DNA from: a virus
IMG/VR virus record: IMGVR_UViG_3300027752_001458
Location: 45,676 to 109,675 of that record
Reading direction: 5' to 3' (one strand)
Length of the DNA stretch: 64,000 bases
Below the pieces are notes generated by a model. It was not told the DNA's origin. It did no database searches and saw only the letters and a program-made list of their open reading frames with translations. The translations under genes were made by a program, and so were the position numbers. Shown here one piece after another: positions 29,142 to 44,764 of this stretch (within the stretch, counting starts at the first letter, position 1; each line of letters begins with the position of its first letter).

Positions 29142-29224
29142 ATGCGTTAGCATTAATTATGACTAGGCACTCGACGGAATGTCTAGACTACATAAACGTA
29201 GAACATAAAAATAGGAAGAATACG

Positions 29225-32200
29225 ATGGCCACAGCAATTCAATGGAGACGAGGTAACACTTCTCAAACCGCTAGTTTTACAGGTTTGGTCGGTGAGATTA
29301 CAGTCGATACAGACTTATCTACCGTTATTGTCCACGACGGCTCAACAAGCGGCGGACATAGGTTAGCGAAATTCTCAGAGCTTTCAGCATTTGGTGATGG
29401 AGATATTACAAGCGTAGTAGCAGGTACAGGTTTATCTGGTGGTACTACTAGCGGTGACGCTACAATTAATATCGACAACTCAGTTGTTGCAACTTTGACA
29501 GACTCGCAAACTTTAACAAATAAAACATTAACTAGTCCAGTTTTAAACACTGGGATAAGCGGTAGTGCATTAATCGATGATGATTCGATGGGTACAGCTA
29601 CAGCAACAACAATTTCAAGTTCGGAATCAATTAAAGCATACGTTGACGCAGTCGAAACAGATGACGTAGCAGAAGGTTCAACAAACGTATATTTCAGCAC
29701 AGCAAGAGCAAGAGCTTCTGTTAGTGGTGGAACAGGTATTACATATACGCAAGGCACAGGTGTTATTGCATTAACAGATGAAGATTTCATCTCAGGTGTA
29801 ACAGCAGGATCAGGTATAACAGGCGGCGGAGCCACTGGTAACATTACTGTTGCTTTAGACTATGAAAACATGGCAGGCAACTTAATACCAACAGCAAACG
29901 TAACATACGATTTGGGTTCTACAACAATGATGTGGAAAGACATTTATGTTGGTCCAGGTTCTTTATATGTTAACGGACAGAAAGTATTAGAAGATGACGC
30001 AGGTACAATTACAATTAGTGCAGATGCAGATCAGAACGTTGCAGTTAAGACATCCGGTTCAGGTGATGTTGAATTAAACGCATCAGGTACTGGCGTAATT
30101 AACGCACAATCGAGCATGTTGTTTGATGCTTCTAAAACACTAGGCGGCACAGGCGGATTACAGTTATCAAGTAACATCAATGCAAGTAGTAACTACATTA
30201 ATAACGTAGGTGCTCCAGCAGTTGCCGGCGATGCTACAAACAAAACGTATGTAGACGGCACATCTTATCTTACTGGCGGTGACGGTATTGATAACGATTC
30301 AAGCACACTTAACCTTGATGCTACTGTTGTAAGAACAGCAGGCGCTCAAACTATTGGTGGTGCAAAGACATTTAGTAGCGATGTTATATTTAACGGTGAC
30401 TTTACTGTTAACGGTACAACATCAACAGTTAATACTGAAACAATTTACTTAGAAGATAACATTATTACTTTGAACTACGGTACTTCCGGCGCTCCAACAG
30501 AGAACGCAGGTCTTACAGTTGACAGAGGTAGTAGTGCAGATGTAAACATTCAGTGGAACGAAACAAGTGATCAGTGGGAAATTACTACAGACGGTAGTGC
30601 GTACACTAAGATTGCACAATCAACTACAGACTTAACTGAAGGAACTAACTTATACTATACAACAGGACGTTGGGATACCAAATTAGCTTCTGCAGATACA
30701 GACGATTTAAGCGAAGGTTCAACTAACCTTTATCACACAACGGCAAGAGCAAGAGCGGCAATTAGTGTTTCTGGTGACTTAGGTTACAACAGCACAACTG
30801 GTGTTATTAGCTTCACAAATGACGCAGGTGATATTGAAAGTGTTGTAGCTGGAGCTGGTATGATTGGTGGCGGAACGTCAGGTGATGTTACACTTAACGT
30901 TGCAGGCGGATTTGGTATTACTGCAAATGCAGACGATATCCAAATTGCTAACTCAGATGTTAGAGCATTGTTTACAGCATCAGGCGATATCAGCTATAAT
31001 AACAGCACAGGTGTTTTTAGCTTCACAAATGACGCAGGTGACATTGAAAGTGTTACAGCAGGAAATGGTTTAACAGGCGGCGGTGCAACCGGCGCTATCA
31101 CTATAGCATTAGACGACTCTCATGTAAAAGGACTTGTTAGTGCTGGCGGAGACTTATCATACAATAGCTCAACAGGTGCTTTCAGTTTTAGTCATCCTAC
31201 TATGTACAATGATGCAGACGCAACTGACGCGGCAAGAGCGGCAGTATCAGCAGGTGGCGATATAGCATACAATAGTTCAACTGGTGTAATTAGTTACACA
31301 ACACCAACAGAGCGAACTGATGCAGAAGTCAGAGGCTTAATTAGTGCAGGTGGTGACTTGGCATACAACAGCACAACTGGTGTTATTAGCTTCACAAATG
31401 ACGCAGGTGATATTGAAAGTGTTGTAGCAGGTACATTGTTAGACGGTGGCGGCACAAGTGGTGCAGTTACACTAAACGTTGACCTTTCAGAACTAACAGA
31501 TATGACAGATGCAGTTGTTGGTACAGCAGATGAGATGGTACTACTAGACAGTGGTGTACAGAAGCGTAAACTTATTAGCGAAATCACACTAAGTGACTTC
31601 AGTAATGACTTAGGCAACTACGGTGGTTATACAAGTAACGTAGGTGACATCACAGGTGTTACAGCAGGAACTGGTTTAACAGGCGGCGGCGCAAGCGGCA
31701 GTGTTACAGTATCATTAAGCCACTTAGGTTTAGAGAACTTAACAGATCCAAACGATGATAGAATTGTGTTCTGGGACGACAGTGCAAGTGCTTTATCCTA
31801 CCTAGATGCTGGTACAGGTATTAGTATTAGTGGTGCTACAATGTCAGTGAACATGGGTGCATTTGATACAGCCGATCTAACTGAAGGCACTAACCAGTAC
31901 CACACTAGTGCAAGAGTTAACTCACTGATTGATACTAGAGTTACTAATGCTTTTGTAGACGCATTGAATGTAGATGCAGATACATTAGACGGAATTAGTA
32001 GTGCAAGTTTCATGAGAAGCGATGCAACTGATTCACATAGTGGAACATTTACTCCAAGTACAGATAACTCAATTGACTTAGGTTCAAGTTCTTTACGATA
32101 TAATGAAGTATACGCAGTAACTTTCCAAGGAACAGCAAGTTCGGCGCAGTTTGCGGATTTGGCTGAGAAATACGAAAGTGATGCAGAACTAGATGCTGGT

Positions 32201-32515
32201 ACAGTTGTTATGTTTGGCGGTGAAAAAGAAATTACTGCATGTGATAGTGAAAACTGTCATGCAGTTGCAGGTGTTATTAGTACAGATCCAGCATACATGA
32301 TGAATGCAGGCGGCGAAGGTCAATATGTAGCATTAACAGGAAGAGTACCTACTAAGGTTACTGGACCAGTTGCTAAAGGTGACTTGATGGTTTCCGCAGG
32401 AAACGGTATGGCTAAATCAAATAACGAAGCACAAGCAGGAAGAATAATTGGTAAAGCAGTTGAATCTTCTGAAGGTGGCGAAGCAGTTATTGAAGTATTA
32501 GTTAACATGATGTAA
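29225..32515 (+). CDS. Second repetitive tail fibre protein
   Basis: 1096 residues from ATG 29225 (AGGAAG upstream); the open frame reaches 22 codons further back without a ribosome site. The N terminus IQWRRGNTSQTASFTGLVGE with VIVHDGSTSGGHRLA is the head of many marine phage fibres. The middle has SGGDLAYNSSTGVISFTNDA-type repeats alternating with TAGTGLTGGGASGSVTV-type turns. The C-terminal 190 residues match those of the first fibre gene almost motif for motif (FADLAEKY, then VVMFGGEKEI, ending IIGKAVESSEGGEAVIEVLV). The shared tail may be a chaperone or trimerisation domain. Two terminators follow. Confidence 0.85.
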   Translation: MATAIQWRRGNTSQTASFTGLVGEITVDTDLSTVIVHDGSTSGGHRLAKFSELSAFGDGDITSVVAGTGLSGGTTSGDATINIDNSVVATLTDSQTLTNKTLTSPVLNTGISGSALIDDDSMGTATATTISSSESIKAYVDAVETDDVAEGSTNVYFSTARARASVSGGTGITYTQGTGVIALTDEDFISGVTAGSGITGGGATGNITVALDYENMAGNLIPTANVTYDLGSTTMMWKDIYVGPGSLYVNGQKVLEDDAGTITISADADQNVAVKTSGSGDVELNASGTGVINAQSSMLFDASKTLGGTGGLQLSSNINASSNYINNVGAPAVAGDATNKTYVDGTSYLTGGDGIDNDSSTLNLDATVVRTAGAQTIGGAKTFSSDVIFNGDFTVNGTTSTVNTETIYLEDNIITLNYGTSGAPTENAGLTVDRGSSADVNIQWNETSDQWEITTDGSAYTKIAQSTTDLTEGTNLYYTTGRWDTKLASADTDDLSEGSTNLYHTTARARAAISVSGDLGYNSTTGVISFTNDAGDIESVVAGAGMIGGGTSGDVTLNVAGGFGITANADDIQIANSDVRALFTASGDISYNNSTGVFSFTNDAGDIESVTAGNGLTGGGATGAITIALDDSHVKGLVSAGGDLSYNSSTGAFSFSHPTMYNDADATDAARAAVSAGGDIAYNSSTGVISYTTPTERTDAEVRGLISAGGDLAYNSTTGVISFTNDAGDIESVVAGTLLDGGGTSGAVTLNVDLSELTDMTDAVVGTADEMVLLDSGVQKRKLISEITLSDFSNDLGNYGGYTSNVGDITGVTAGTGLTGGGASGSVTVSLSHLGLENLTDPNDDRIVFWDDSASALSYLDAGTGISISGATMSVNMGAFDTADLTEGTNQYHTSARVNSLIDTRVTNAFVDALNVDADTLDGISSASFMRSDATDSHSGTFTPSTDNSIDLGSSSLRYNEVYAVTFQGTASSAQFADLAEKYESDAELDAGTVVMFGGEKEITACDSENCHAVAGVISTDPAYMMNAGGEGQYVALTGRVPTKVTGPVAKGDLMVSAGNGMAKSNNEAQAGRIIGKAVESSEGGEAVIEVLVNMM

Positions 32516-32960: not shown

Positions 32961-32968
32961 GATAAATA
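32961..32968 (+). promoter_or_regulatory. Late promoter motif for the curli locus
   Basis: GATAAATA followed by C, 62 nt before the ATG at 33031. It is the only promoter-like signal found ahead of seven tightly packed genes ending at 37953, so the curli locus should be a late operon. Confidence 0.65.
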
Positions 32969-33030: not shown

Positions 33031-33327
33031 ATGGAAGACATTTTTAAACTTATAGGCGAAGTTGGGTTGCCCATAGCAGGCTCCCTAACGATGGGCTTTT
33101 TTATATTCCTCATAATTAAACAAATGCTTGCCGGCATTGTCGGTCAAATTGAAACACTCACTATGTTCTGCAAAAGCCTAGAAGGCCGAGCAAGAACAAT
33201 GAGCAATGAGATGATAAAAATCGACTTGCTTGTTAGTAGTGCATTGAATTTAAGACCAGACATTGAACGTATAGCAAGAGCCGAAAACTTTGTTGAAGAC
33301 GGCAAATTAGATGTGAGGCGAGACTAA
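33031..33327 (+). CDS. Small membrane protein A of the curli locus
   Basis: 98 residues. One membrane segment (VGLPIAGSLTMGFFIFLIIK, about 11-30) then a helical coiled region (QIETLTMFCKSLEGRARTMS, NEMIKIDLLVSSAL). It is a clear relative of the next gene, so a tandem pair. The layout (short N-terminal anchor, then cytoplasmic coiled coil) resembles BhlA/UviB-type holin-like phage proteins, but no lysis gene is beside it. It could instead energise or anchor the secretion complex. TGAAGTGA precedes the ATG as a poor ribosome site. It overlaps the next start by one base. Confidence 0.65.
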   Translation: MEDIFKLIGEVGLPIAGSLTMGFFIFLIIKQMLAGIVGQIETLTMFCKSLEGRARTMSNEMIKIDLLVSSALNLRPDIERIARAENFVEDGKLDVRRD

Positions 33328-33626
33328 TGGATATGGCTCAACTGATATCCGACCACGGCTACCCAGTAGTAGCAACAGTGGGATTGGGATATTTTATTTT
33401 TTATGTATGGCGCTTTATAGGTTCAGAAATTAAACCTGCATTAGGCAACATGCATATGGCGTTAATAAGAGTTATTGATCAGACGAGGATGCTTGATCAA
33501 GACATGATTCGATTACAACAAAAAGTAAACGTTGTAATAGAGTACAGACAGAGACAAGAAGTTCTAGAAGATGCAGAAGAAAAGACTGCACTTAGAGAAC
33601 AAAAACAACAGGAAGTTAAAAAATGA
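33327..33626 (+). CDS. Small membrane protein B of the curli locus
   Basis: 99 residues, paralogue of the preceding gene: membrane segment YPVVATVGLGYFIFYVWRFI (about 11-30), then HMALIRVIDQTRMLDQDMIR and a highly charged C-terminal helix (VLEDAEEKTALREQKQQEVK). Start overlaps the previous stop (TAATG) and its own stop overlaps csgF (ATGA), so the three are co-translated. It is not CsgE: CsgE is a soluble periplasmic protein with a cleaved signal. Holin-like or pore-accessory function is possible. Confidence 0.65.
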   Translation: MDMAQLISDHGYPVVATVGLGYFIFYVWRFIGSEIKPALGNMHMALIRVIDQTRMLDQDMIRLQQKVNVVIEYRQRQEVLEDAEEKTALREQKQQEVKK

Positions 33627-34120
33627 GTAAGTTTTTATTAATAGCGGTTGGCTATTTTGTAATTGCTCTTGCACCAAGTGTACAAGCAGACCAACTAACA
33701 CATAAATTTAAGTCTCCGAGTTTCAGCGGCATTGGAACTGGAGCACATTACCTTACGATTGAGAATCAAGAGAAAAGTCGTAGGGACAAAATTGCAGACA
33801 ACATTGAATCGGCACTTAAAGCGGCAGAGCGAGCAGACTCAAACAGCACAATTAACAAATTCATTAGAAATTTAGAGAGTAGAATATACGCTCAAATCTC
33901 TAAAGGATTAGTTGACAGCATGTTTTGTGATCCGGCTACTGTAGTAGAGTGTACAGGTTCAGACTCAGGTGATTTTACAATTGAAGGTAATAATGTAAGT
34001 TACCAAATAGTTATAAGTGACGATGGATTAGAAGTAATGAGACTTACTATTGTTTCTCCAGATGGCACAATAACACAGATAGAAATACCGATTGGCATCG
34101 GCAGTATCGGCGGCGGATAG
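33623..34120 (+). CDS. csgF: Curli assembly protein CsgF
   Basis: 165 residues with signal peptide (MSKFLLIAVGYFVIALAPSV, cleavage near QA-DQ). The mature start LTHKFKSPSFSGIGTGAHYL matches the CsgF N terminus (F-x-F/K-NP-x-F-G), the part that plugs and narrows the CsgG pore in E. coli. Next come a helical NKFIRNLESRIYAQISKGLV segment and a beta-rich C terminus (VSYQIVISDDGLEVMRLTIV). CsgF couples curlin export to nucleation on the cell surface. It overlaps the membrane gene by 4 nt and csgG by 1 nt, preserving the csgF-csgG pairing of bacteria. Confidence 0.9.
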   Translation: MSKFLLIAVGYFVIALAPSVQADQLTHKFKSPSFSGIGTGAHYLTIENQEKSRRDKIADNIESALKAAERADSNSTINKFIRNLESRIYAQISKGLVDSMFCDPATVVECTGSDSGDFTIEGNNVSYQIVISDDGLEVMRLTIVSPDGTITQIEIPIGIGSIGGG

Positions 34121-35121
34121 TGAAAGATTTTTATAAACTTTTTGCCGTAGTGGCATTATTGCTAACTACTGGGTGTGCCAGTATTGCTATACCAGGTGAC
34201 AAGCAGTGCCAGGCTGATTTTTTAGAATGCATTGAAGAACCACAACAAGTAGAACTCCCAACTTATAGAAAGTTACGTTACCTACCTCCTGCGGAAACAA
34301 TGCCAGTAGTAGCAGTTTACCAATTCGCAGACTTAACAGGACAACGTTTAAGTTCGGACGGAGCGGCAAGTTTTAGCACAGCCGTAACACAAGGTGCAAA
34401 GGATTTACTAATTGACGCTCTTAAGGCGGCAGGCGCTGGAAAAGACCCTAAGGGTACTTGGTTCCGTGTCGTTGAAAGAGGATTAGGATTAGATAATTTA
34501 GTGCGGGAAAGGCAGATTATTCGAAGTACAAGAGAATCATATGCCAAAGATAGCGACCCCGCACAGCAAGTACAGCCATTATTATTTGCTGGGATGATAT
34601 TAGAAGGAGGAGTTGTAGGTTATGACTCGAATATCGAAACAGGTGGCTCAGGTGCAAGATATCTTGGTATAGGGACAACAAACCAATACCGAAGAGATAG
34701 TGTAGTGGTATCATTGAGAGCAGTAAGTACACTTACAGGCGAAGTGATATTGAACGTACAGACATACAAGACCATTCTAAGTGTAGGGCAAGCCGGCGAT
34801 GTGTTCAAGTTCCTTGACATGGACACTAAATTGCTTGAAATAGAAAGTGGTTTGACAGAAAATGAGAGTGTAACATGGGGTGTTCGTTCAGCGATTGAAG
34901 CCTCTGTTTTAGCTCTTGTTGAACAAGGTGACGAGAGAGGATTTTGGAAAATAGTTTACCCAGAAAATTGGGACCAACTAGTGGCTGAGCAAGAACAGGC
35001 ATATTGGACGAGGGAGTCTATTAAGTTACTTAAAGACCCTATTAGTAACGAAACGAAATCTAAACTCAACAAGAACGATGATTCTATTGTAAAGAAAATT
35101 TTTTACAAAAAGGAATCTTAA
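34120..35121 (+). CDS. csgG: Curli secretion channel lipoprotein CsgG
   Basis: 333 residues, GTG start overlapping the csgF stop. Lipoprotein signal with lipobox LTTGC (Cys19). CsgG family landmarks: VVAVYQFADLTGQRLS (~63-78), FSTAVTQGAKDLLIDALK, GTWFRVVERGLGLDNLVRER (~107-126), LLFAGMILEGGVVGYDSNIE (~148-167), YRRDSVVVSLRAVSTLTGEV (~187-206) and VLNVQTYKTILS, the transmembrane hairpins of the nonameric outer-membrane pore. Length is slightly above E. coli CsgG (277) because of a longer C terminus (WTRESIKLLKDPISNETKSK). With CsgF it should form a working outer-membrane export gate. Confidence 0.93.
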   Translation: MKDFYKLFAVVALLLTTGCASIAIPGDKQCQADFLECIEEPQQVELPTYRKLRYLPPAETMPVVAVYQFADLTGQRLSSDGAASFSTAVTQGAKDLLIDALKAAGAGKDPKGTWFRVVERGLGLDNLVRERQIIRSTRESYAKDSDPAQQVQPLLFAGMILEGGVVGYDSNIETGGSGARYLGIGTTNQYRRDSVVVSLRAVSTLTGEVILNVQTYKTILSVGQAGDVFKFLDMDTKLLEIESGLTENESVTWGVRSAIEASVLALVEQGDERGFWKIVYPENWDQLVAEQEQAYWTRESIKLLKDPISNETKSKLNKNDDSIVKKIFYKKES

Positions 35122-35143
35122 TTAACCATATATGGAGTAAGTT

Positions 35144-35944
35144 ATGAAGACAAATAAATTTTTTAAGAATACATTATTAACCGTCTTCGCTATAACAGGG
35201 ATATTATCAATTGACCTTGCGTCAGCGGATAATGAAGTTTTAATAGATCAAGTTGGTGACAACTTAACCTTAACAGTTTTACAAGCAGGCTACGGTAACA
35301 GTTTATCTGGAGATACAAGTCAGGGTACTGATTTAACTCTCACAGGCGGTAGTTTAATTGTAGATCTAATCCAAGACGGTAATTTAAACGAGATCTTCGG
35401 ATCTTGGGTACTCGATGGATCAGGGTCAAGTGTATTAGATTTTTACTTTCAGGGTAACAGCAATATCTGGGATATGAATATTGGTGCTACAGGCAGTAGT
35501 GATTATACTGATATTTTATCAAACATTACTGGCGACAGTAACCTTTTTGATATTGATATTGGTGGTAACAACACAGCTGAAAGTTCAAATATGGATCTAG
35601 TAGTACTCGGATCAAGAAACGATTTCTCAACTAGTTTTACTAATAGTAAAGTTTGGGCCGCAGGCTCTGGCAACAATTCTACTGGTACACAGACTATGTC
35701 AGGAATTTTAATTGATTCAAGTTACAACACTTGGAACTTTGATATCACAGGATCAGACAATGCGTTTGCCACAAAGCAACAAGGCAATGACGCACATCTA
35801 TTAACTGTGGAATTAGACGGTAGCGATGGTGATTTCCAATTTATACAAGATATGACAACCACATGCTCACCTGCTTGTAACGGTGTCATTAATTTAAATA
35901 TAAATAGTGAAAATGCGTCAGTTAGTGTTAAGCAGACAGACTAG
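35144..35944 (+). CDS. Curlin-like secreted protein 1
   Basis: 266 residues. Signal peptide, then mature start ADNEVLIDQVGDN, which is nearly the same in the second curlin. Repeats of the curlin type with Gly-Asn turns and Gln/Asn-ended strands follow: VLQAGYGNSL, LIQDGNLNEIF, FQGNSNIWDMNIG, ITGDSNLFDIDIG, LGSRNDFSTSF, QQGNDAHLLTVEL. The C terminus carries two Cys (TTCSPACNG) and ends ASVSVKQTD. It is the likely export substrate of CsgG and amyloid subunit. It is less regular than CsgA, so fibre formation is not certain. It overlaps the FecR gene. Confidence 0.8.
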   Translation: MKTNKFFKNTLLTVFAITGILSIDLASADNEVLIDQVGDNLTLTVLQAGYGNSLSGDTSQGTDLTLTGGSLIVDLIQDGNLNEIFGSWVLDGSGSSVLDFYFQGNSNIWDMNIGATGSSDYTDILSNITGDSNLFDIDIGGNNTAESSNMDLVVLGSRNDFSTSFTNSKVWAAGSGNNSTGTQTMSGILIDSSYNTWNFDITGSDNAFATKQQGNDAHLLTVELDGSDGDFQFIQDMTTTCSPACNGVINLNINSENASVSVKQTD

Positions 35945-37088
35945 TACATTAGCATTTATGCTTTTGTTTGCGTTTAATGTGCAAGCCTCCGTCGGCTCAA
36001 TCGGCGGAGTGCTTGAACAATCTGGAAGTGTAGCACAAATACAACGAAATAAAGAAAACATACGAGCAGTTTTAAACGAAGAGATTGCTAGTATGGATGA
36101 AGTAGAAACAAAGAACGGACGATTGAAAATTAAATTTGTCGATGATACACTAGTGAGTTTAACAGAACACACTTACATGGTCATCGACGAATATGTGTAC
36201 GACCCGAACCCAAGTAAAAGCAAAATGGCATTAAATTTTGTGTCAGGTACAGCAAGATTTGCCACAGGCGGCTTAGGTTTAGTACCCAGAGAGAACATTA
36301 CAATACAAACTCCTACAGCAAGTATAGGCATAAGGGGAACAGATTTTACTACCACAGTCGATGAACTGGGTAGAAGCCTAGTAATACTATTACCAGACGA
36401 TAATTGTACTGATAAGGTATCACTAGAAGAAGGTTGTGCACCTAGTGGGAGTATAACAGTCACTAATGCAGGCGGAACTCAAGTGCTCACAGAAGCATAC
36501 CAGGCAGTAATGGTAAGCACTTTTGAGACTATACCGACCACTCCGGTTACACTTGTTAATTTAGATTTAAATATGATTGACAATATGTTCATTGTAAGCG
36601 AACCTGTAGAAATTAAAGAGGCAGTTGAGGAACAACAAAGCGAGTTAAAAGGTAGCGCCGGACTTCTAACTTTTAACGGGCTAGACCAGGACTTGCTAGA
36701 TATAGAAGGACTGGAATCTAATACGGCAGATAATTATGAATTTACAGAATTAGATATAGATTTTTTAGATGTTGAATTCTTAAATGATTTATTAGACATC
36801 CTAGAGGATAATATAGATTCGCTAGGCGAAGAACTTAACAATCAAGGTGACGGCACCGACAAACTAATAGGCACACGCTTTGGTAACGATCCAGGTACGC
36901 AGTTTAATACGTTTGCAGATTACGATGGTAAAGTATTCTTTTTAAGACAAGTATCAAACAAAATTGGAATTAAATTAGAAAAAGGTAGTCAAGCAAGAAT
37001 TGAATTGTTTGACTCAGATGTAGGAGAAAACTTAATATGCCTAAACAGTTGTGACGGCATATACATTAGTATTACACAAAATGATTAA
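35913..37088 (+). CDS. Secreted FecR-domain protein with curlin-like C terminus
   Basis: 391 residues from ATG 35913 (a GTG at 35907 is also possible); it begins inside the end of the curlin 1 gene. Signal peptide TLAFMLLFAFNVQASVG. FecR domain at about 30-145: VAQIQRNKENIRAVLNEEI, then LVSLTEHTYMVIDEYVYDP, LNFVSGTARFATGGLG and NITIQTPTASIGIRGTDF. FecR domains act in periplasmic sensing. The last 40 residues (VFFLRQVSNKIGIKLEKGSQ, then ICLNSCDGIYISITQND) look like a curlin end with two Cys. It may be a fibre-linked sensor or anchor. FecR genes often neighbour CHASE2 cyclases in bacteria, as here. Confidence 0.8.
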   Translation: MRQLVLSRQTSTLAFMLLFAFNVQASVGSIGGVLEQSGSVAQIQRNKENIRAVLNEEIASMDEVETKNGRLKIKFVDDTLVSLTEHTYMVIDEYVYDPNPSKSKMALNFVSGTARFATGGLGLVPRENITIQTPTASIGIRGTDFTTTVDELGRSLVILLPDDNCTDKVSLEEGCAPSGSITVTNAGGTQVLTEAYQAVMVSTFETIPTTPVTLVNLDLNMIDNMFIVSEPVEIKEAVEEQQSELKGSAGLLTFNGLDQDLLDIEGLESNTADNYEFTELDIDFLDVEFLNDLLDILEDNIDSLGEELNNQGDGTDKLIGTRFGNDPGTQFNTFADYDGKVFFLRQVSNKIGIKLEKGSQARIELFDSDVGENLICLNSCDGIYISITQND

Positions 37089-37953
37089 AATATTACAGAC
37101 AATTATATTAGTAGCAGGACTTGTATTTGCAGAACAAGTAGCAAGTGCTGACAACGAAGTGCTTATAGACCAGACTGGCGACAACGTTGTTATTGGTATC
37201 TTACAGGAAGGATACAATAACAGTATTGATGTAGATTTAGGATTAGCTACTTTTGATACTTCCAACACATTTGAAGTAAAACAGGAAGGCCATAATAACG
37301 AAGTTTTCCTTAGTGTAGGTGGAACTGACAATACGTTGGTGCTGATACAAGAAGGCAACAACAATGATATCAGTTGGACAGATTCTTGGGGCAGTGGTAA
37401 AGCATGGGGCGGAGACTTAGACGGCAATTATAATAACATACACATTCAGCAAAAATGTAGTTTTACAACATGTAATCCAAACGAGGCTCAATTTCATATA
37501 TGGGGCAACAGTAACACCGTTCTATTTGGGCAAGGCTATTATCTAACAGGCCCTAGCGATACAACATTTGATTATGATAACTGGGAACCAGGTGGCAACT
37601 TTCTCCGGTTAGACATTCACGGCAGTAGTAATAGTTTTAAAGGTGGTCAAAAAATGGATAGCACTAGTACTAATCATAATATGACTGTAGACATACATGG
37701 TAACAGCAACAATGTATTTGCACAGCAATGGGCCAATGGTAACAAGACACTTACTTTAAACGTTGACAGCAACAGCAATTCTGTTGCCATTGAACAAAAC
37801 AATAGCGGTAATCACACCGCAACAGTAACACTTGATGGTTCGTACCCTACAAGTTTGAACTTGCTACAAACAGGATCAGGTAATCAGTCATACACACTAT
37901 TCCAAAACTGCCAAACAGTTGGCGGATGTAGTGTGTCTATAACACAGGACTAA
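37081..37953 (+). CDS. Curlin-like secreted protein 2 (best CsgA/CsgB-like)
   Basis: 290 residues from ATG 37081, overlapping the FecR stop. Signal peptide MIKILQTIILVAGLVFAEQV and mature start ADNEVLIDQTGDN. About nine curlin-type repeats with strand-GxxN-turn pattern: ILQEGYNNSIDV, VKQEGHNNEVFLS, LIQEGNNNDISW, DGNYNNIHIQQ, WGNSNTVLFGQG, HGSSNSFKGGQ, HGNSNNVFAQQ, DSNSNSVAIEQN, QTGSGNQSYTLFQ. The spacing (about 20-30 residues) matches amyloid curlin repeats. It ends CQTVGGCSVSITQD, sharing the Cys-pair and ITQD ending of the FecR protein. Likely the main fibre subunit or nucleator exported by CsgG. Confidence 0.85.
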   Translation: MIKILQTIILVAGLVFAEQVASADNEVLIDQTGDNVVIGILQEGYNNSIDVDLGLATFDTSNTFEVKQEGHNNEVFLSVGGTDNTLVLIQEGNNNDISWTDSWGSGKAWGGDLDGNYNNIHIQQKCSFTTCNPNEAQFHIWGNSNTVLFGQGYYLTGPSDTTFDYDNWEPGGNFLRLDIHGSSNSFKGGQKMDSTSTNHNMTVDIHGNSNNVFAQQWANGNKTLTLNVDSNSNSVAIEQNNSGNHTATVTLDGSYPTSLNLLQTGSGNQSYTLFQNCQTVGGCSVSITQD

Positions 37954-37999
37954 AACGCAAGTGAATCACGTATTTCATTGATCTGCGCCAACAAATTTG

Positions 38000-38007
38000 C
38001 ATAAATA
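38000..38007 (+). promoter_or_regulatory. Late promoter motif for small lipoprotein
   Basis: CATAAATA, 46 nt before the ATG at 38054, with TAAGGAGAA as ribosome site. Confidence 0.6.
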
Positions 38008-38053
38008 AACTTTGTAAAAGGGTTAACCTTTTCGACAACCTAAGGAGAACGCT

Positions 38054-38341
38054 ATGAATAGATTACTATCTATTACAGCAGTCCTCGGTTTTGTTGTTTT
38101 TCTTCCGTCATGTGCGTCAGTTGGCGCAGTAATTGAAGGTGGGAAAGAGTTTACTACAGGCGTAGTAGATGGATCCGTTAATGCAGTTTCTACAATAGCA
38201 GGAGCAGTATTAACAGATGTATCTAGTATCACAAGCACAGCGGCACAAGCCGCTACAGGTGTAATTGACACCGTTGCGACTGAAGTAGATAAACAAACCG
38301 ATGCATTGCAAGAACCAAAAGCAAAGCCAGAGGGAAAGTAG
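38054..38341 (+). CDS. Small lipoprotein, zero-frame product
   Basis: 95 residues: lipoprotein signal MNRLLSITAVLGFVVFLPSC (lipobox LPSC, Cys20), then a low-complexity Val/Thr/Ala helix (STIAGAVLTDVSSITSTAAQ, then VIDTVATEVDKQTDALQ). The ribosome site TAAGGAG lies 9 nt upstream. The zero frame stops at TAG 38339-38341 right behind a G GGA AAG heptamer, and the -1 frame continues for 37 codons (next entry). It lies between the curli operon and the CHASE2 cyclase. It may serve the secretion complex at the outer membrane, but no family was recognised. Confidence 0.75.
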   Translation: MNRLLSITAVLGFVVFLPSCASVGAVIEGGKEFTTGVVDGSVNAVSTIAGAVLTDVSSITSTAAQAATGVIDTVATEVDKQTDALQEPKAKPEGK

Positions 38342-38451
38342 TAACTTCATCAGCCAGGAAGGTAGATGAAGAAATTGCTGAACAAGACATTAAAGTTATA
38401 GTACGCAGTATTATGATGTATTGTTCTAAAAATCCCAAGGAATGCGAATAA
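38332..38451 (+). CDS. C-terminal extension of the lipoprotein by probable -1 frameshift
   Basis: Slippery heptamer G GGA AAG (38332-38338), identical to the lambda G/GT site, sits in phase (GAG GGA AAG) directly before TAG. A 7-bp hairpin CTTCATC/GATGAAG (38345-38351/38365-38371) begins 6 nt later, the usual distance for a stimulator. Slippage gives GTA GTA ACT and on to a TAA at 38449-38451, adding a charged tail (VVTSSARKVDEEIAEQDIKV, ending CSKNPKECE). This frame has no start codon of its own. A simple indel is the alternative. A terminator follows 2 nt later. Confidence 0.65.
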   Translation, partial: GKVVTSSARKVDEEIAEQDIKVIVRSIMMYCSKNPKECE

Positions 38452-38452
38452 C

Positions 38453-38480
38453 AAAAGCACACTACGGTGTGCTTTTTTTT
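38453..38480 (+). terminator. Rho-independent terminator after the lipoprotein
   Basis: A 10-bp stem AAAAGCACAC/GTGTGCTTTT closed by TACG, then T run. It is directly followed by a late promoter motif, so transcripts are cleanly separated. Confidence 0.93.
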
Positions 38481-38488
38481 GATAAATA
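38481..38488 (+). promoter_or_regulatory. Late promoter motif, leaderless geometry
   Basis: GATAAATA then TATTA then ATG (38494). The 5-nt gap places +1 at the start codon; there is no ribosome site. Confidence 0.65.
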
Positions 38489-38493
38489 TATTA

Positions 38494-40551
38494 ATGAAAT
38501 GGTTACTAAGCGGCTGGACCGTAGCAATATCTATATTACTATTAACGACTTTACGAGTTGCCGACCCTACACCATTACAGAGTTTGCGTAGTCAAACATT
38601 CGATGCATTACAGCAATTAGATGTTAAAAAAGAAAGCAACGAAGTTGTTATAATTAACATTGGCGAAAAAAGTTTACAACAATGGGGGCAATGGGCATGG
38701 CCAAGACAGAACATAGCACAGTTGATATCAGATTTGCGGAGCAAGAACGCTGGAATAATTGGTTTAACGATTATGTTTCCGGAAACAGACCGATTTGGCG
38801 GGGACGCAGTTTTGTCAAGTTGGATGTCGGAGAACGGGGTAGTTTTATCCCAGACCCCATCTGGCAGAGGAATAAAGAGTACAGGTCCTCATATTGGTAC
38901 AGCAACGATAGGCCCAGTATCCGCTACGGACTACTTGCTGACATGGCCGAATCTCGTAACGAATATTGATATATTAGAGAAGTCAGCCGCAGGCATTGGC
39001 GTAGTAGCAAGCGAGCCACAAGCAGACAATCAGACGAGAACATATCCACTAGCAGTCGCTGTTGAAGGAAACATATATCCTAGTTTTGCTATTGAAATGC
39101 TTAGGGTGTATACAGGCAAACCTAGTTATATTCTAAAGACATCCGAGATCGGCATTAAAGAATTTGCAGTACCTCCGTTTGATCCTATTGTGACATCCGG
39201 AAGAGGTTCTGCATACATAAGATTTAATAACATATTTGAAGAACACGAGTATGTTCAAGCGAGTGAACTGCCTGACTTAGGCGGAAAGTTCGTAATAGTG
39301 GGAGTAAGTGCTGAGGGTGTTGCTAATCCGGTTCCCACTCCGGTAGGCAACATATATCCACAGTACATACAAGCTCATATGCTACAGAACTTTATTGATG
39401 GTAGTAACATTACCAGGAGTGAACTAAGTGCTGTGTACGAGCTTCTGTGTGCGTTGTTGAGCATGATCCTAGTGGCTCTTGCGATATATAAGTTACCCAT
39501 ATGGGCAGGACTGTTTACTACAGTAAGTATTGTAGGAGCAATTGCCTATTCTACTGTACACTTTTATACTGCAAACTTATATTTGTTCGATGCAACCTTC
39601 CCTGCAATAGCAACATTCTTAATTTTTACACAGGCAAGTTTTAATAACTTCTGGGTACAGTTTAAATTGAGACAAGAAATACAGAAACAATTTGCTGGAT
39701 ATGCCTCACCTACCGTTGTTAGAATGTTACAAGATAACCCGGACTTAATTAAACAAGGCATGAAGAAAGAAGTTAGTATATGCTTTTCAGACTTACGTGG
39801 CTTTACTCCACTAGGTGAGAGCTTTGGCGATGATGTACAGGGCTTAACAAAAATGATGAACGAGTATATGGATGCTATTACACAACCTATACTTGATGCA
39901 GACGGCATGGTGATTAAATATATCGGCGATGCAAGTATGCACATACACAATGCTCCTATGGACGACCCAGATCATCCTAAGAGTGCGGTGCAAACAGGAT
40001 TACAAATGCTTAGGGCAGTGGAGAAGTTTAATGATAAAATTGTTAAAGAGGGCAGACCACCCATTGGTATGGGTGCTGGTATTAATACTGGGCTCGGTTA
40101 TATTGGGGAAATGGGCTCCACTGCAAGACACTCATATGACATACTCGGAGACGCAGTTAGTACTGCCGCGAGAATAGAAAGCAAGTGTAAAGAGTATGGG
40201 TGCTTATTACTTGTAGGTGGAGACACATACAAGCATACTAAGAGTGATTTCTTTTATCTAAAAGTAGATGACTTGCAAGTAAAAGGTAAAAGTGTTGGAA
40301 TAGAAATATACACTGTACTGGATATTAAGCGAACTAAGTATGTTAAAGGTAAGCAACTACACGCACAGATGCATAAACATTATCGTAACCAAGACTTTAA
40401 TAAAGCAATTAAATTGTGTAATCAACTGTCTAAAACCTTTGATGGTAAGATGAAAGATTATTATGCTATGTGGATTGAACGTTGTGAATTTCAACTAACA
40501 CAAGACTTACCTAAAGATTGGAACGGGATATTTATTGCCACAGGCAAGTAG
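38494..40551 (+). CDS. CHASE2-domain class III adenylate/guanylate cyclase
   Basis: 685 residues from ATG 38494. N-terminal membrane anchor (MKWLLSGWTVAISILLLTTL), extracytoplasmic CHASE2 sensor (~25-300; VVIINIGEKSLQQWGQWAWP, then PRQNIAQLISDL), three membrane helices (~310-380) and a class III cyclase domain (~426-600). Metal Asp433 (FSDLRGFT) and Asp479 (KYIGDAS) are present, with the Lys and Asp associated with ATP specificity (KYIGD, LGDAV). Arg560 is kept, but the transition-state Asn is replaced by Ser556 (GDAVSTAAR), so activity may be reduced. It probably makes cAMP in response to an envelope signal and forms a signalling arm with the FecR protein. Cyclases of this class are rare in phages. 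Confidence 0.88.
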   Translation: MKWLLSGWTVAISILLLTTLRVADPTPLQSLRSQTFDALQQLDVKKESNEVVIINIGEKSLQQWGQWAWPRQNIAQLISDLRSKNAGIIGLTIMFPETDRFGGDAVLSSWMSENGVVLSQTPSGRGIKSTGPHIGTATIGPVSATDYLLTWPNLVTNIDILEKSAAGIGVVASEPQADNQTRTYPLAVAVEGNIYPSFAIEMLRVYTGKPSYILKTSEIGIKEFAVPPFDPIVTSGRGSAYIRFNNIFEEHEYVQASELPDLGGKFVIVGVSAEGVANPVPTPVGNIYPQYIQAHMLQNFIDGSNITRSELSAVYELLCALLSMILVALAIYKLPIWAGLFTTVSIVGAIAYSTVHFYTANLYLFDATFPAIATFLIFTQASFNNFWVQFKLRQEIQKQFAGYASPTVVRMLQDNPDLIKQGMKKEVSICFSDLRGFTPLGESFGDDVQGLTKMMNEYMDAITQPILDADGMVIKYIGDASMHIHNAPMDDPDHPKSAVQTGLQMLRAVEKFNDKIVKEGRPPIGMGAGINTGLGYIGEMGSTARHSYDILGDAVSTAARIESKCKEYGCLLLVGGDTYKHTKSDFFYLKVDDLQVKGKSVGIEIYTVLDIKRTKYVKGKQLHAQMHKHYRNQDFNKAIKLCNQLSKTFDGKMKDYYAMWIERCEFQLTQDLPKDWNGIFIATGK

Positions 40552-41178
40552 TTAGTCGTCCGGAGTCCATTGCCTAACAGCAGTAAATAGATTTGCATAG
40601 TCAAGCAAATCAGACCTCAATGTTTTTAAATGTGTTAACTCAATAGGAATACGTAGACCCGAAGCTTCGTATAGCGGAAGATAGAAGTTTATAATTTTAT
40701 CAACACGTTGTCGGTCAGTTAAAATTGCTTTCATTACTCGTTGATGCCATTCGTTGCTAGACACTATATCAAATAGCCACCCATGATGTGGACTATGACT
40801 GTTAAACTTCTTAACCATTTCTTTTGTTTCGTAGTACACTGCTCGCACAGGATTTATATTTACTCTGTATTTTTTCATCACGGCAGGGTATACCCACCAG
40901 TGTTCTCTACAACGTTGGTTTTTTAAGAATCCTCTATACTCGTTCTCCATGCTCTTTGCTAAACCATCTGCACTTTCCCTAATTTCCACTTCATAGACTT
41001 TTATTAACCTGTCTGCTATCCTCTTATGTTTAGCAGAAAAGTCTTCGTAGTTCTCCTTAAGGTCAAGTATAGAGAACGTACCGTCTAAAAATGTGTTGGG
41101 AATTGTTTTGTGTAGTTTGAATTTATTAAGCTCAGTAGTCAAACGTATAGAGTCAAAATTTATAATATCCTTTGACAT
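40552..41178 (-). CDS. Hypothetical alpha-helical protein
   Basis: 208 residues from ATG 41178 (5 more codons are open upstream). Mostly helical and basic with many aromatic residues (REHWWVYPAVMKKYRVNINP, then HHGWLFDIVSSNEWHQRVMK). No known motif. The ATG lies exactly 5 nt behind a GATAAGTA late-type motif, again a leaderless arrangement. It ends directly against the convergent cyclase gene. Function unknown. Confidence 0.7.
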   Translation of the reverse strand: MSKDIINFDSIRLTTELNKFKLHKTIPNTFLDGTFSILDLKENYEDFSAKHKRIADRLIKVYEVEIRESADGLAKSMENEYRGFLKNQRCREHWWVYPAVMKKYRVNINPVRAVYYETKEMVKKFNSHSPHHGWLFDIVSSNEWHQRVMKAILTDRQRVDKIINFYLPLYEASGLRIPIELTHLKTLRSDLLDYANLFTAVRQWTPDD

Positions 41179-41183
41179 GCTAT

Positions 41184-41191
41184 TACTTATC
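41184..41191 (-). promoter_or_regulatory. Late promoter motif variant, leaderless geometry
   Basis: GATAAGTA on minus, then ATAGC, then ATG (41178). Same 5-nt gap as at seven other genes. It overlaps the end of the Nudix gene. Confidence 0.5.
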
Positions 41192-41741
41192 ACATATTGA
41201 TCTTTAGGATAGTGCGTAGTTTATTAACGCCCTTGTTTCTTCCTAAAGTGCTCTTAGCACCAAAGTGTAGTGGCATAGGCCAATTACCTATATCGACCCA
41301 AGCATACCCGGCACTCTCTTTATTAAGATTGGGGATAAATTCATCGTCGACTAGGTATACAAAACTGTAGTACATAAAGTTTTTATCTTTACTTTGGTAT
41401 ACATCAATGGGATTTAATTTTTTTAGTTCTGGGACGAGACCTATTTCTTCCATAAGTTCACGTTGAATAGTATCGTAAGTAGTCTCACCGTCATCCATCA
41501 TACCTCCCCAAAAACCCCAGGTGTGTTTTCCTTTCTTGTCGGAGTTGCGGAGTTGGAATAAGCATCTGCCTGTAGACTTGGATAAGAACAAAACACCAGC
41601 GGCACTTATGCCGTTGTGTCTAGATAAGTTAGTCATCGGGTTAAGTGTTTGTAGAACGCTCTCTTTGATTATACGTTCAGGCGCCAGAACCCTGGGTTGT
41701 ACTTCCCTTCGTATGTGCTTGTCCATTGAACGTTTTCCCAT
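41190..41741 (-). CDS. Nudix hydrolase
   Basis: 183 residues with a complete Nudix box G-x5-E-x7-RELMEEIG (GGMMDDGETTYDTIQRELME), which binds Mg and cleaves X-linked nucleoside diphosphates. The preceding strand ISAAGVLFLSKSTGRCLFQL is also typical. The longest frame starts at 41741 and would overlap gp15 by 73 nt; ATG 41636 (MTNLSRHNGISAAGV) avoids this but neither start has a good ribosome site. T4 NudE is a Nudix enzyme, as are cyanophage MazG-like partners. Substrate (ADP-ribose, NADH, Ap4A or RNA cap) cannot be read from sequence. Confidence 0.9.
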   Translation of the reverse strand: MGKRSMDKHIRREVQPRVLAPERIIKESVLQTLNPMTNLSRHNGISAAGVLFLSKSTGRCLFQLRNSDKKGKHTWGFWGGMMDDGETTYDTIQRELMEEIGLVPELKKLNPIDVYQSKDKNFMYYSFVYLVDDEFIPNLNKESAGYAWVDIGNWPMPLHFGAKSTLGRNKGVNKLRTILKINM

Positions 41742-43069
41742 TTGTATTGTTTGTTTGTGTATAAGTTTTTAACATAATGAACACTTTCTTGGTTTGCTGA
41801 TGTAGAAGCATCAAATGATATAATCCATGCAGTGCCGTTGTATTCAATAATGTCATTAGCGTCTGCGGATATACCCCAACTAGCGCCATGTAACTCTGTA
41901 GTAAGTAAGTAACGTTGTCCTGTTGTTGCTACGGCTAAAGTGCCATCACCTGGATAGTTTGCTGTAGCATCGACTATTCTTGTTACGTTTGTTTGTGTTG
42001 TTGAAGGCAAAGTGTCAGTATCCAATGTAAATATAAGTTTAGATGCATCCGCTGGATTTCTTGCCACTAAGCCAGTTATCAATGTAGACGAGTCTACATC
42101 GTTCGATATATTAAGTTGTAATGTACTTGCTGTAGTTAACGGAATGTCTGAAATACTTATGTTAGCATTCGCTGTACCGGTTCCCTGTGGGGAGAGTACT
42201 TCTAGTAAATCATTCCAGTTAGCTTCTGTGGCACCGTTTTTATATAACTTGGCCACTGTACCAGTAAGTTCAACTTCATAATTGTTAGGTGATATTGTGT
42301 GCAACTCAAAGTCTTGATCCAAGTCTCTAAAGAAGTCGTACATATCTTCGTCATAACCTAAATCTCCGACACTGCCTGTGTCGTAAATATTTGTTATAAT
42401 AGTATTAATAATTTTTTGTCTTTTAACTTTAGCGGGAGGACTTACCCATATAGGTAACACAAATGTTAGTGTAGCAACATCAATTGTTTCATCAACTCCT
42501 GCAGGAACACTTCTGTTGCTCCATTGTATATCAGTTAATTCGACTTCGTATAAACTAGTCCAGTCTAATGGATTGTTTCCTTGCTGTAGTTGTATACTAG
42601 GATTAAATAGGATTAAAATTTGTTCTAGTAATTGTAATTTTTGATCTGTGTTCCCACTCCAAATATCAATGTTCATTGTTAAGTTGTAAGGAACAGGCAT
42701 ATATCTATCTGTTGTATATAAATTTCCAGGAAACTCTGCCGAACTGTAAGTAGCATTGCCAGAGTCATATTGTCTTTCAGCAACTTGTACTTTACTAACA
42801 AGCATTGGATCTTGTGCTCTGTCTCTAGCAATAAGCAAACTTGAAATGTTACATGATATAAACGGTGTACTATTAACCATGTTCTCCGAACCTTTGGTCA
42901 ATATATGTGCAACCATACGTTGCATGTCTGCATATCTTACTGGAACTTTTTGGTAGTTCGTAACACCATCACGTTTACCTTCTGCAACTGTAAAGCCACT
43001 GAATATTCTCATGAACTGAAGCAAGTATCTTCTTAACTGTGCGTCATAAAAGTAATCCATATTTGCCAT
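41669..43069 (-). CDS. 15: Tail terminator/sheath stabiliser gp15 with extra C-terminal domain
   Basis: 466 residues. The first 230 match the gp15 family: YFYDAQLRRYLLQFMRIFSG (~5-24), VPVRYADMQRMVAHIL, LYTTDRYMPVPYNLTMNIDI and LEQILILFNPSIQLQQ. gp15 caps the top of the contracted tail and joins it to the neck. T4 gp15 is 272 aa; the additional ~190 C-terminal residues (from NNYEVELTGTVAKLYKNG, then GWTSTYEGKY-like end) look like a beta-rich decoration domain. It starts one base after the gp14 stop and shares its promoter. Confidence 0.85.
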   Translation of the reverse strand: MANMDYFYDAQLRRYLLQFMRIFSGFTVAEGKRDGVTNYQKVPVRYADMQRMVAHILTKGSENMVNSTPFISCNISSLLIARDRAQDPMLVSKVQVAERQYDSGNATYSSAEFPGNLYTTDRYMPVPYNLTMNIDIWSGNTDQKLQLLEQILILFNPSIQLQQGNNPLDWTSLYEVELTDIQWSNRSVPAGVDETIDVATLTFVLPIWVSPPAKVKRQKIINTIITNIYDTGSVGDLGYDEDMYDFFRDLDQDFELHTISPNNYEVELTGTVAKLYKNGATEANWNDLLEVLSPQGTGTANANISISDIPLTTASTLQLNISNDVDSSTLITGLVARNPADASKLIFTLDTDTLPSTTQTNVTRIVDATANYPGDGTLAVATTGQRYLLTTELHGASWGISADANDIIEYNGTAWIISFDASTSANQESVHYVKNLYTNKQYKWENVQWTSTYEGKYNPGFWRLNV

Positions 43070-43070
43070 A

Positions 43071-44099
43071 TTAATCTGCCTTAGGTTTCACAGCCTTACT
43101 CATATTAGTCTTTTCTGACTGAGTAGTACCGTCTGTGTTAGTAGTTATTTTATCATTGTTAACGAATGATGTGAGTAGTTTATTGGCGGCACTCCAGACA
43201 TTCTTGTTGTCATCGCTCACCTTAATCCATCTAGTACCTTGCTTCTTAAACAGTCTGTGTGGACTGAAGTCAGTTCTCAAGTAGTACTCTCCGTCATTTG
43301 CATCTAGTGGCATTGCATCGCCACTGCCTACTATTGATATACCGTTAGGAGCTTCACCGTCACCGGGGAAGTATACACCAGGCTTGTCTTGCGAATTAGG
43401 ATCAACATATAAGTGTCCACCTTCATAATAACCAGCGTCATATTGAACTTCTGAATTTGCTAGTTCTATAACCTTATCCGATATTGCAATCTCAGTGCTG
43501 TATGTACTTAAAATATTTCTAAGGTCGTCAGCTTGTTCACCTGTACCGAGTATGTCTCTGTACTCAGGACTATCTGTAATATTTTTAAGTTTGACTTTCC
43601 ATAAGTGAGGCCACCATCTAGCATCGTAACCTTCTGCTGGTCTGCCAGCATCACTTACAACGAAGAATCTATTAACTGCGGCTCCACCGCCTAAGAGTAA
43701 ATCATCTCTTAAATGCGGAAGCTCAAGCACATCGCCTGCCATCAATCGCCTACCCAACATGTTAGCACAGGTATTCATATGGAAAGTCATAGATAACGAA
43801 TCGTTATTTACAAATAGTCCAAACTGTGTTAAATCGAAGTCGGGGTCTGCAATTTGATATGCACCACGTAGCTCGTAAATGTCAGCGTCATACTTTCTAT
43901 CCCTGTTCTCTAAAAAGACAACGTCTTGGATATACAGTTCCTCGCTTCCAATACTTGCAGATGTGTCATCTTTATAAGTGCCTACATACTTATGTACATA
44001 AACTCCTGTGCCACCTGCGTTGACAGACTCGGCTACAACTCTATCAATAAAGTCATAATCGTTTCCTTTGTTCTTGTTCCATAAACTTAATCTAGGCAT
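43071..44099 (-). CDS. 14: Neck protein gp14
   Basis: 342 residues from ATG 44099. Family features: the early VVAESVNAGGTGVYVHKYVG segment, an acidic RDRKYDADIYELRGAYQIAD region, FGLFVNNDSLSMTFHMNTCA and ARWWPHLWKVKLKNITDSPE. T4 gp14 (256 aa) forms the neck collar with gp13. The last ~100 residues (DGEYYLRTDFSPHRLFKKQG) form a small added domain. It precedes gp15 as in T4. The late motif on minus lies 7 nt before the ATG, so the leader is a few bases at most. Confidence 0.78.
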   Translation of the reverse strand: MPRLSLWNKNKGNDYDFIDRVVAESVNAGGTGVYVHKYVGTYKDDTSASIGSEELYIQDVVFLENRDRKYDADIYELRGAYQIADPDFDLTQFGLFVNNDSLSMTFHMNTCANMLGRRLMAGDVLELPHLRDDLLLGGGAAVNRFFVVSDAGRPAEGYDARWWPHLWKVKLKNITDSPEYRDILGTGEQADDLRNILSTYSTEIAISDKVIELANSEVQYDAGYYEGGHLYVDPNSQDKPGVYFPGDGEAPNGISIVGSGDAMPLDANDGEYYLRTDFSPHRLFKKQGTRWIKVSDDNKNVWSAANKLLTSFVNNDKITTNTDGTTQSEKTNMSKAVKPKAD

Positions 44100-44106
44100 A
44101 ATGTAG

Positions 44107-44114
44107 TATTTATC
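44107..44114 (-). promoter_or_regulatory. Late promoter motif for gp14-gp15-Nudix operon
   Basis: GATAAATA on minus, 7 nt before the gp14 start; predicted leader 0-2 nt. It lies back to back with the tRNA promoter. Confidence 0.65.
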
Positions 44115-44128
44115 ACTTCCTGAAGTTC

Positions 44129-44157
44129 TTGACAAATACTTTGATAACTATTATACT
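44129..44157 (+). promoter_or_regulatory. Sigma70 promoter of the tRNA operon
   Basis: TTGACA at 44129-44134, 17-nt spacer, TATACT at 44152-44157. tRNA-Ser begins at 44172, so the transcript start lies a few bases before it. Confidence 0.85.
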
Positions 44158-44171
44158 GTATAAGTAATTTC

Positions 44172-44261
44172 GGAGAGTTGGCTGAGTGGTCGAAAGTACC
44201 TCCCTGCTAAGGAGGCGTCTGGGTAACTGGACCGAGGGTTCGAATCCCTCACTCTCCGCCA
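44172..44261 (+). tRNA. tRNA-Ser(GCT)
   Basis: A 90-nt class II tRNA. Acceptor GGAGAGT pairs with ACTCTCC, discriminator G and encoded CCA; anticodon loop CTGCTAA gives GCT, reading AGC/AGT. A long variable arm (TCTGGGTAACTGGACC region) identifies serine. T loop GGTTCGAATCC is canonical. Confidence 0.95.
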
Positions 44262-44306
44262 CTATTTTAGAGCATTGGCAATGCTGGTGGTAAATATACG
44301 CAGTAA

Positions 44307-44381
44307 GCGAGTATAGTATAACGGTTATTACAAGACGTTGCCAACGTTTGGATATCGGTTCGATTCCGATTACCCGCTCCA
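44307..44381 (+). tRNA. tRNA-Gly(GCC)
   Basis: 75 nt. Anticodon loop TTGCCAA gives GCC (GGC/GGT). Acceptor GCGAGTA with TACCCGC pairs except an A-C mismatch at the fourth pair; discriminator T and encoded CCA fit bacterial tRNA-Gly. T arm CGGTTCGATTCCG is good. The D arm is short. Confidence 0.88.
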
Positions 44382-44431
44382 ACTACGAATAGTTCGTAGG
44401 CATTGTTACAAGTGTAACAGGAAGGTATAAC

Positions 44432-44674
44432 ATGGTTAATGCAATAACAACCAAAAAAGTAAGTAAGGCAACAACACCAGCAGTGTTAAAAAGAAAAGAA
44501 ATCGTAGATATTGATTTTGACTTTTCTAAGATTGGTGAGAATGTCCAGAAGAACGCAGAACAGATTAGCAAGAACCTTATGAGGAATGCTGAAATGATCG
44601 GTGAAAATGTTAAAAGAAACTCAGCGAGAGTTGGCGATAACATGAAGAAATACTTAAATAGAAATATTAAGTAA
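44432..44674 (+). CDS. Small basic coiled protein between tRNAs
   Basis: 80 residues, AGGAAGG ribosome site 6 nt upstream. After a basic start (TTKKVSKATTPAVLKRKE) it has near-repeats of IGENVQKNAEQISKNLMR, MIGENVKRNSARVGDNMK: an amphipathic helix with an 11- to 15-residue period, reminiscent of LEA- or phasin-like helices. It sits between tRNA-Gly and tRNA-Ala in the sigma70-driven operon, so early. Function unknown; nucleic acid or membrane surface binding is possible. Confidence 0.65.
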   Translation: MVNAITTKKVSKATTPAVLKRKEIVDIDFDFSKIGENVQKNAEQISKNLMRNAEMIGENVKRNSARVGDNMKKYLNRNIK

Positions 44675-44688
44675 GCAAGAAAATATCT

Positions 44689-44764
44689 GGGGCTGTAGCT
44701 CAGTTGGGAGAGCGGTTCCCTTGCACGGAACAGGTCGTAGGTTCGATCCCTATCAGCTCCACCA
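44689..44764 (+). tRNA. tRNA-Ala(TGC)
   Basis: 76 nt. Acceptor GGGGCTG with CAGCTCC (one G-T), discriminator A, encoded CCA. D arm GCTCAGTTGGGAGAGC, anticodon loop CTTGCAC gives TGC (GCN), T arm GTAGGTTCGATCCCTAT. A textbook structure. Confidence 0.97.

Follow-up and report, generated by a model that had tools for sequence, protein, structure and literature searches.

A curli-type secretion module with FecR and CHASE2 cyclase genes as inserted cargo of a PA5oct-related jumbo phage

The DNA stretch analyzed here (the window, 64,000 nt; positions 45,676 to 109,675 of the IMG/VR virus record IMGVR_UViG_3300027752_001458, which is 109,675 bp long) carries at positions 33031 to 40551 a type VIII secretion system (T8SS, curli) cluster, all on the + strand, in the order transmembrane (TM) pair-CsgF-CsgG-curlin-FecR-curlin-lipoprotein-CHASE2 cyclase. 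It is a phage curli module of a known kind in a new carrier lineage, that of the Pseudomonas jumbo phage PA5oct. An earlier note, made from the sequence alone, had named these genes, and all were found, in the order shown; its picture of a curli-type export cluster equipped with a FecR protein and a CHASE2 cyclase stands, while the superinfection exclusion that it also entertained does not fare well (see below). The genes (aa, amino acids) are as follows.

33031 to 33327, + strand: TM1, 98 aa, one N-terminal membrane segment and a coiled coil; phrog_18771
33327 to 33626, + strand: TM2, 99 aa, paralogue of TM1; phrog_18771
33623 to 34120, + strand: CsgF, 165 aa, with a signal peptide; Pfam PF10614, E = 1.5e-9, over the cut-off
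34120 to 35121, + strand: CsgG, putative outer-membrane pore lipoprotein, 333 aa, lipobox LTTGCA; Pfam PF03783, E = 2.4e-43, over the cut-off
35144 to 35944, + strand: curlin-like protein 1, 266 aa; Curlin_rpt under the cut-off (14.8 bits, E = 0.027)
35907 to 37088, + strand: FecR-domain protein, 393 aa; PF04773, E = 6.1e-10, over the cut-off
37081 to 37953, + strand: curlin-like protein 2, 290 aa; Curlin_rpt E = 2e-4, narrowly over the cut-off (21.3 to 21.7 versus 20.7 bits)
38054 to 38341, + strand: small lipoprotein, 95 aa, optional; lipobox LPSCAS
38494 to 40551, + strand: CHASE2 receptor nucleotide cyclase; CHASE2 E = 6.8e-39 and Guanylate_cyc E = 1e-17, both over the cut-offs

CsgG matched the solved Escherichia coli CsgG with a profile E value of 6.6e-69, which identifies it as a T8SS pore homologue. 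CsgF is a homologue with a predicted pore-binding N terminus: its F-x-x-P-x-F segment is conserved, with F29, P32, and F34 invariant across 33 sequences, and in E. coli CsgF residues 20 to 31 line the pore (PMC7304575). A curlin-repeat substrate lies within the cluster in the form of curlin-like protein 2, most likely starting at 37081 (the mechanical open reading frame [ORF] at 37051 begins at an upstream GTG). Curlin_rpt matched 31 of the 38 members of its alignment (best E = 2.3e-14), and its predicted structure is a strand ladder (predicted local distance difference test score [pLDDT] of 80, predicted template modeling score [pTM] of 0.79). CsgE, CsgC, and CsgD, considered absent in the earlier note, had no match among the nine cluster proteins.

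The window phage is, judging from its structural genes, a marine PA5oct-related jumbo phage. Its major head protein is 70% identical to that of PA5oct (Arenbergviridae, 286 kb), and its sheath and one structural protein are 44% identical to their PA5oct counterparts. Relatives of the window phage measure 250 to 340 kb, and several, L018 (250,519 bp) and L032 (339,794 bp) among them, combine a head protein 85 to 92% identical with a matching cluster. The label "T4-like" given earlier thus holds at the superfamily level, but the phage is PA5oct-like and not a pelagimyophage. A pelagimyophage identity was considered and rejected, the structural genes being nearest to PA5oct and the HTVC008M head protein only 38% identical to the window's; by the same genes the carrier falls outside the pelagiphages, i.e., it is not a SAR11 myo- or podophage.

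PA5oct itself has no csgG match. At the corresponding place in its genome a tail fiber gene (+) directly abuts a hypothetical/NUDIX/sheath-stabilizer run (−), with nothing between, and it is this junction that the curli block occupies in the window and in many loci of the jumbo lineage. The empty PA5oct junction gives a clean view of the curli block as cargo inserted between the following flanks.

29159 to 32515, + strand: left flank, tail fiber gene, adjoining the same junction in PA5oct
40552 to 44135, − strand: right flank and insertion border, genes for a hypothetical protein, a NUDIX protein, the tail sheath stabilizer, and a structural protein, common to PA5oct

Because the flanking hypothetical protein has weak similarity to that of PA5oct, the insertion border is placed chiefly by the arrangement of the remaining genes.

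The cluster is also inherited as a unit. Across the scorable viral loci, defined as csgG loci with room on either side (n = 45), all 45 kept both TM proteins, CsgF, FecR, and one or more curlins; two curlins and the cyclase were each kept in 43 and the lipoprotein in 24, counts that are not independent events because the loci are related. FecR and the cyclase, for which the earlier note had proposed a synteny survey, therefore travel with csgG at 45/45 and 43/45 loci, respectively; the breakup of the cluster that would have spoken against its interpretation was looked for and not encountered. The TM pair is retained even where rearranged: in L069, L071, L072, and L073 it is relocated past the cyclase on the opposite strand, and in L076 and L077 it flanks csgF.

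A cellular counterpart was found in L111, a 705-kb contig from a single metagenome-assembled genome (MAG; Hyphomonas sp. TMED17), where CsgF-CsgG-curlin-FecR-CHASE2 cyclase lie between bacterial flanks without the TM pair. L111 is the sole clearly cellular exception in our 80 bacterial-collection loci, those with FecR and the cyclase being otherwise phage-like contigs. Given its arrangement, the additional regulators did not necessarily originate in phages. Among 29 bacterial loci sampled, 4 have FecR next to CHASE2 in the absence of curli, an adjacency that fits a signaling pair but does not show one. Phage-type modules were also seen on contigs of bacterial assemblies (L104 to L110, L112, L113, L115, L118, L120, L122, and L181; L118 and L120 assigned by similarity on short contigs) that look like phage contigs binned into MAGs, with assembly names including Saprospirales, Synechococcus, Planctomycetaceae, Rhodobacteraceae, Pelagibacter, and others. 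A 1,499-base record labeled Salmonella phage (OR851715.1) encodes a CsgG 40% identical to the window's.

The curli system as such is not new in phages, since its order has been published for SAR11 podo- and myophages (Wittmers et al. 2022, PMC9599517), CsgF/CsgG were noted earlier in pelagiphages (Zaragoza-Solas et al. 2020, PMC7029224) and in the methylophage Melnitz (PMC9004378), and the HTVC008M and Melnitz records have the same order. These reports go into more detail than the earlier note's mention of curli-related clusters in pelagimyophages. The window follows the conserved pelagiphage order (histidine kinase [HK]/CsgF/CsgG/CsgAB/FecR/CsgAB/adenylate cyclase [AC], with one or two small "HK" genes) and likewise is without CsgE, CsgC, and CsgD (PMC9599517, PMC7029224). 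It differs from the pelagiphage module in its PA5oct-related carrier, in the extra lipoprotein, in the mosaic cyclase and the late-type motifs mapped here, and in our reading of two components: the "HK" shows no kinase domain among the families listed, and FecR is reread as a possible export client or anchor. The clusters of Melnitz (MZ577097) and HTVC008M (KC465899) are complete by gene order, have a late-type motif upstream, and encode a CsgG 42 to 45% identical to the window's; they sit between the single-stranded DNA-binding protein gene and baseplate/tail genes, in contrast to the tail fiber location in the window. Although csgA/csgB were stated to be missing in Melnitz (PMC9004378), its own record annotates two curlin-repeat genes. 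As to bacteria, the E. coli csgBAC/csgDEFG system shares the CsgG pore, a CsgF with the conserved N-terminal segment, and the curlin repeats; the window lacks its CsgC, CsgD, and CsgE and adds FecR, the CHASE2 cyclase, and the TM pair. Alphaproteobacterial curli loci (PMC3521004) resemble the window in having CsgF, CsgG, and curlins without CsgC, CsgD, or CsgE but differ in that, across the 80 loci, FecR and cyclase were seen in a clearly cellular setting only in L111. Both regulators are absent from canonical bacterial curli operons according to PMC9599517.

The published "histidine kinase" label of the TM pair is unsupported, because the proteins are only 98 to 99 aa long and no kinase domain, HisKA and HATPase included, was among the matches listed (25 of 34 Pfam families, 39 members). 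A weak YvrJ-like resemblance was noted in 4 of the 39 members (best E = 0.013), and the pair was found in none of 385 alphaproteobacterial genomes in a search run without a positive control.

Resemblance to T4-like late promoters suggests that the cluster is apparently switched on late in infection. The relevant elements in the window are given below.

32961 to 32968, + strand: GATAAATA, T4-like late-promoter motif, 62 nt upstream of the TM1 gene
38000 to 38007, + strand: CATAAATA, late-type motif, 46 nt upstream of the lipoprotein gene; in 27 of 28 distinct upstream regions
38453 to 38476, + strand: terminator-like hairpin between the lipoprotein and cyclase genes
38481 to 38488, + strand: GATAAATA, exactly 5 nt before the cyclase ATG; motif in 28 of 53 loci, mostly at the same spacing

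Upstream of the TM pair, a late-type motif was present in 39 of 55 distinct loci against a background of 0.047 per 150 nt; upstream of csgG it was found in 0 of 57. Of the 16 plus-strand copies of NATAAATA in the window, 15 fall into the 150-nt stretches preceding genes, which make up ~10% of the sequence. This enrichment is partly post hoc, since the variant was picked after GATAAATA had been seen before TM1, and it persists in relatives. TATAAATA in its exact form shows no enrichment in the window (3 observed versus 6.5 expected), and scans for sigma-70 promoters and terminators gave no clear excess over shuffles. The hairpin is supported by its position alone, such sites being no more numerous in the region than in shuffles. 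ATG 38494 is most likely the cyclase start, because the alternative GTG 38467 falls inside the hairpin and because GATAAATA precedes the ATG at a spacing that recurs in relatives. Three genes of the window have NATAAATA at a distance of exactly 5 nt ahead of their start (motif at positions 38481, 45551, and 52742), and their transcripts could lack a leader if these copies act as late promoters.

The FecR protein has a periplasmic-type FecR domain and no N-terminal cytoplasmic anti-sigma domain. Its predicted structure, computed from an alignment without row L082 (HTVC008M), comprises a signal-peptide-like helix (residues 2 to 23), the FecR domain from residue 33, a linker modeled with low confidence, and a confidently predicted C-terminal domain of six strands ending in ISITQND. 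The fold matches the PupR cell-surface-signaling domain and an adhesin cell-surface anchoring domain, the latter also matched by sequence (E = 0.0017). Within the tail, I387, I389, and Q391 are nearly invariant, and the terminal strand motif recurs in 46 of 50 FecR proteins, 31 of 48 curlin 1 proteins, and 34 of 45 curlin 2 proteins, compared with none of the CsgF, CsgG, cyclase, lipoprotein, and TM proteins and 3 of 339 background ORFs. One of the few FecR proteins without it, that of L016, ends in EIRYNF. Because FecR ends in the terminal strand motif of the curlins, its role may be that of an export client or an anchor and not that of an iron regulator.

The cyclase retains its metal-binding aspartate pair (D442 and D488), substrate lysine (K484), and catalytic arginine (R569). 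The metal and lysine positions are conserved throughout the 60 alignment rows, and the arginine is present in each of the 58 rows extending to it. By sequence it is a mosaic whose sensor and catalytic domains differ in ancestry across phages. Relative to L013, the window cyclase is 73% identical in the sensor half and 40% in the catalytic half, and relative to Melnitz, 36% and 83%, respectively; the breakpoint falls at about residues 385 to 420 of the 694-aa ORF (window ~39620 to 39730). Three catalytic clades require 2 changes on the catalytic tree and 9 each on the sensor and CsgG trees, all quick trees with some long branches. These counts indicate that catalytic domains have been swapped repeatedly between phages at one slot.

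Taken together, the observations point to a T8SS module carried as unit cargo by a jumbo phage and exporting curlins late, to a surface or aggregation benefit, a reading on which our confidence is evenly divided. CsgG would form the outer-membrane pore and CsgF cap it; the two curlin-like proteins, and possibly FecR as client or anchor via its curlin-like C-terminal strand, would be exported late and would assemble into fibers on the dying cell or around it. The CHASE2 cyclase would be an inner-membrane receptor making a cyclic nucleotide, its periplasmic sensor most plausibly reading the FecR protein or the envelope state. The likely benefit would be a late effect that holds cells or virions close, or tunes release, rather than an early exclusion of rivals. 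We favor this reading because of the CsgF and CsgG family membership with the CsgF interaction segment, the conservation of the unit across the scorable loci, and the curlin repeats with their strand-ladder model; because of the late-type motifs, the jumbo-lineage site that is empty in PA5oct, and the gene order of L111; and because of the FecR C-terminal motif, the FecR fold matches, and the conserved cyclase residues. Several results weigh against it. Melnitz cultures showed no clumping (PMC9004378). The curlin model matched solved beta-helices weakly, with no E value below 1e-3. Homology between the FecR tail and curlin 2 was not significant in profile comparison with CsgF as control (hhalign probability 3.6%, P = 0.012), comparisons restricted to the tails did no better, and Curlin_rpt had no match in FecR relatives. 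The catalytic asparagine of the VN-x-A-x-R motif is replaced by S565 in the window, and since about half of the catalytic domains have this serine (Ser in 28 and Asn in 30 of 58 rows), cyclase activity is unsure. Finally, a search of nine phage records, among them the HTVC008M and Melnitz genomes in full, turned up no domain that binds cyclic nucleotide monophosphates (cNMP), and no CRP-type/cNMP-binding receiver was seen in 56 of 61 genomes of a Pelagibacter genus.

Other explanations can be set against these data. In line with a proposal made for Melnitz (a pinholin-like pore), CsgG and CsgF might serve lysis timing or uptake without any fibers, with the TM pair as holin-like inner-membrane partners. 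The late-type motifs, the constancy of the TM pair, its YvrJ-like resemblance, and the absence of clumping in Melnitz would all suit such a role; a bare pore, however, would not need the two curlins or FecR that nearly all loci keep, and a CsgG with a lipobox matches an outer-membrane pore, not an inner-membrane pinholin, making this an improbable account in our view. We are similarly doubtful that the cyclase is independent of curli, acting for example against host defense or on host cyclic-nucleotide control and merely hitchhiking in the block. That its catalytic domains were swapped independently of sensor and CsgG, that it has its own late-type motif and a terminator-like hairpin upstream, and that two loci lack it would agree with independence, but it is present at all the others, its sensor stays close across the jumbo lineage, and it occupies the same place in L111.

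Superinfection exclusion, in which fibers would mask the receptors of infected cells from rival phages, has been suggested in PMC9599517 and is compatible with a surface-fiber system; with late-type motifs before the TM pair in most loci, protection would come late, and we think this function quite unlikely. More unlikely still is the view behind the name used in PMC9599517, by which FecR would be an iron-responsive regulator of the conventional type: the structural match to the PupR anti-sigma cell-surface-signaling domain is in its favor, but the protein starts with a signal-peptide-like helix in place of a cytoplasmic anti-sigma domain, its C terminus bears the curlin-type strand motif, and the cluster holds no sigma factor or TonB receptor gene. 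Two published readings, of the TM pair as a histidine kinase and of FecR as an iron regulator, are thus called into question.

Extending our preferred reading of late curlin export, we tentatively propose, as a rather long shot, that FecR is a T8SS client or anchor whose FecR domain remains periplasmic, acting there as both plug and ligand for the CHASE2 receptor, and whose curlin-type strand at the C terminus inserts into the fiber or into the pore of CsgG/CsgF. In that case the receptor would signal how export is proceeding, and catalytic-domain swaps would be the means by which phages rewire the signal. To our knowledge, an export-sensing receptor of this kind has not been described for any curli system. 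A phage curli system that is abundant and puzzling in the ocean is now extended to a jumbo-phage lineage, and it offers testable handles in its apparent late timing, in the tail of FecR, and in the exchange of catalytic domains.

Two further features of the window were noted. Three tRNA genes (Ser-gct, Gly-gcc, and Ala-tgc; positions 44172 to 44764) adjoin the right flank of the insertion, and a 1932-aa ORF (22802 to 28600) directly follows the major head gene, where PA5oct has smaller genes.

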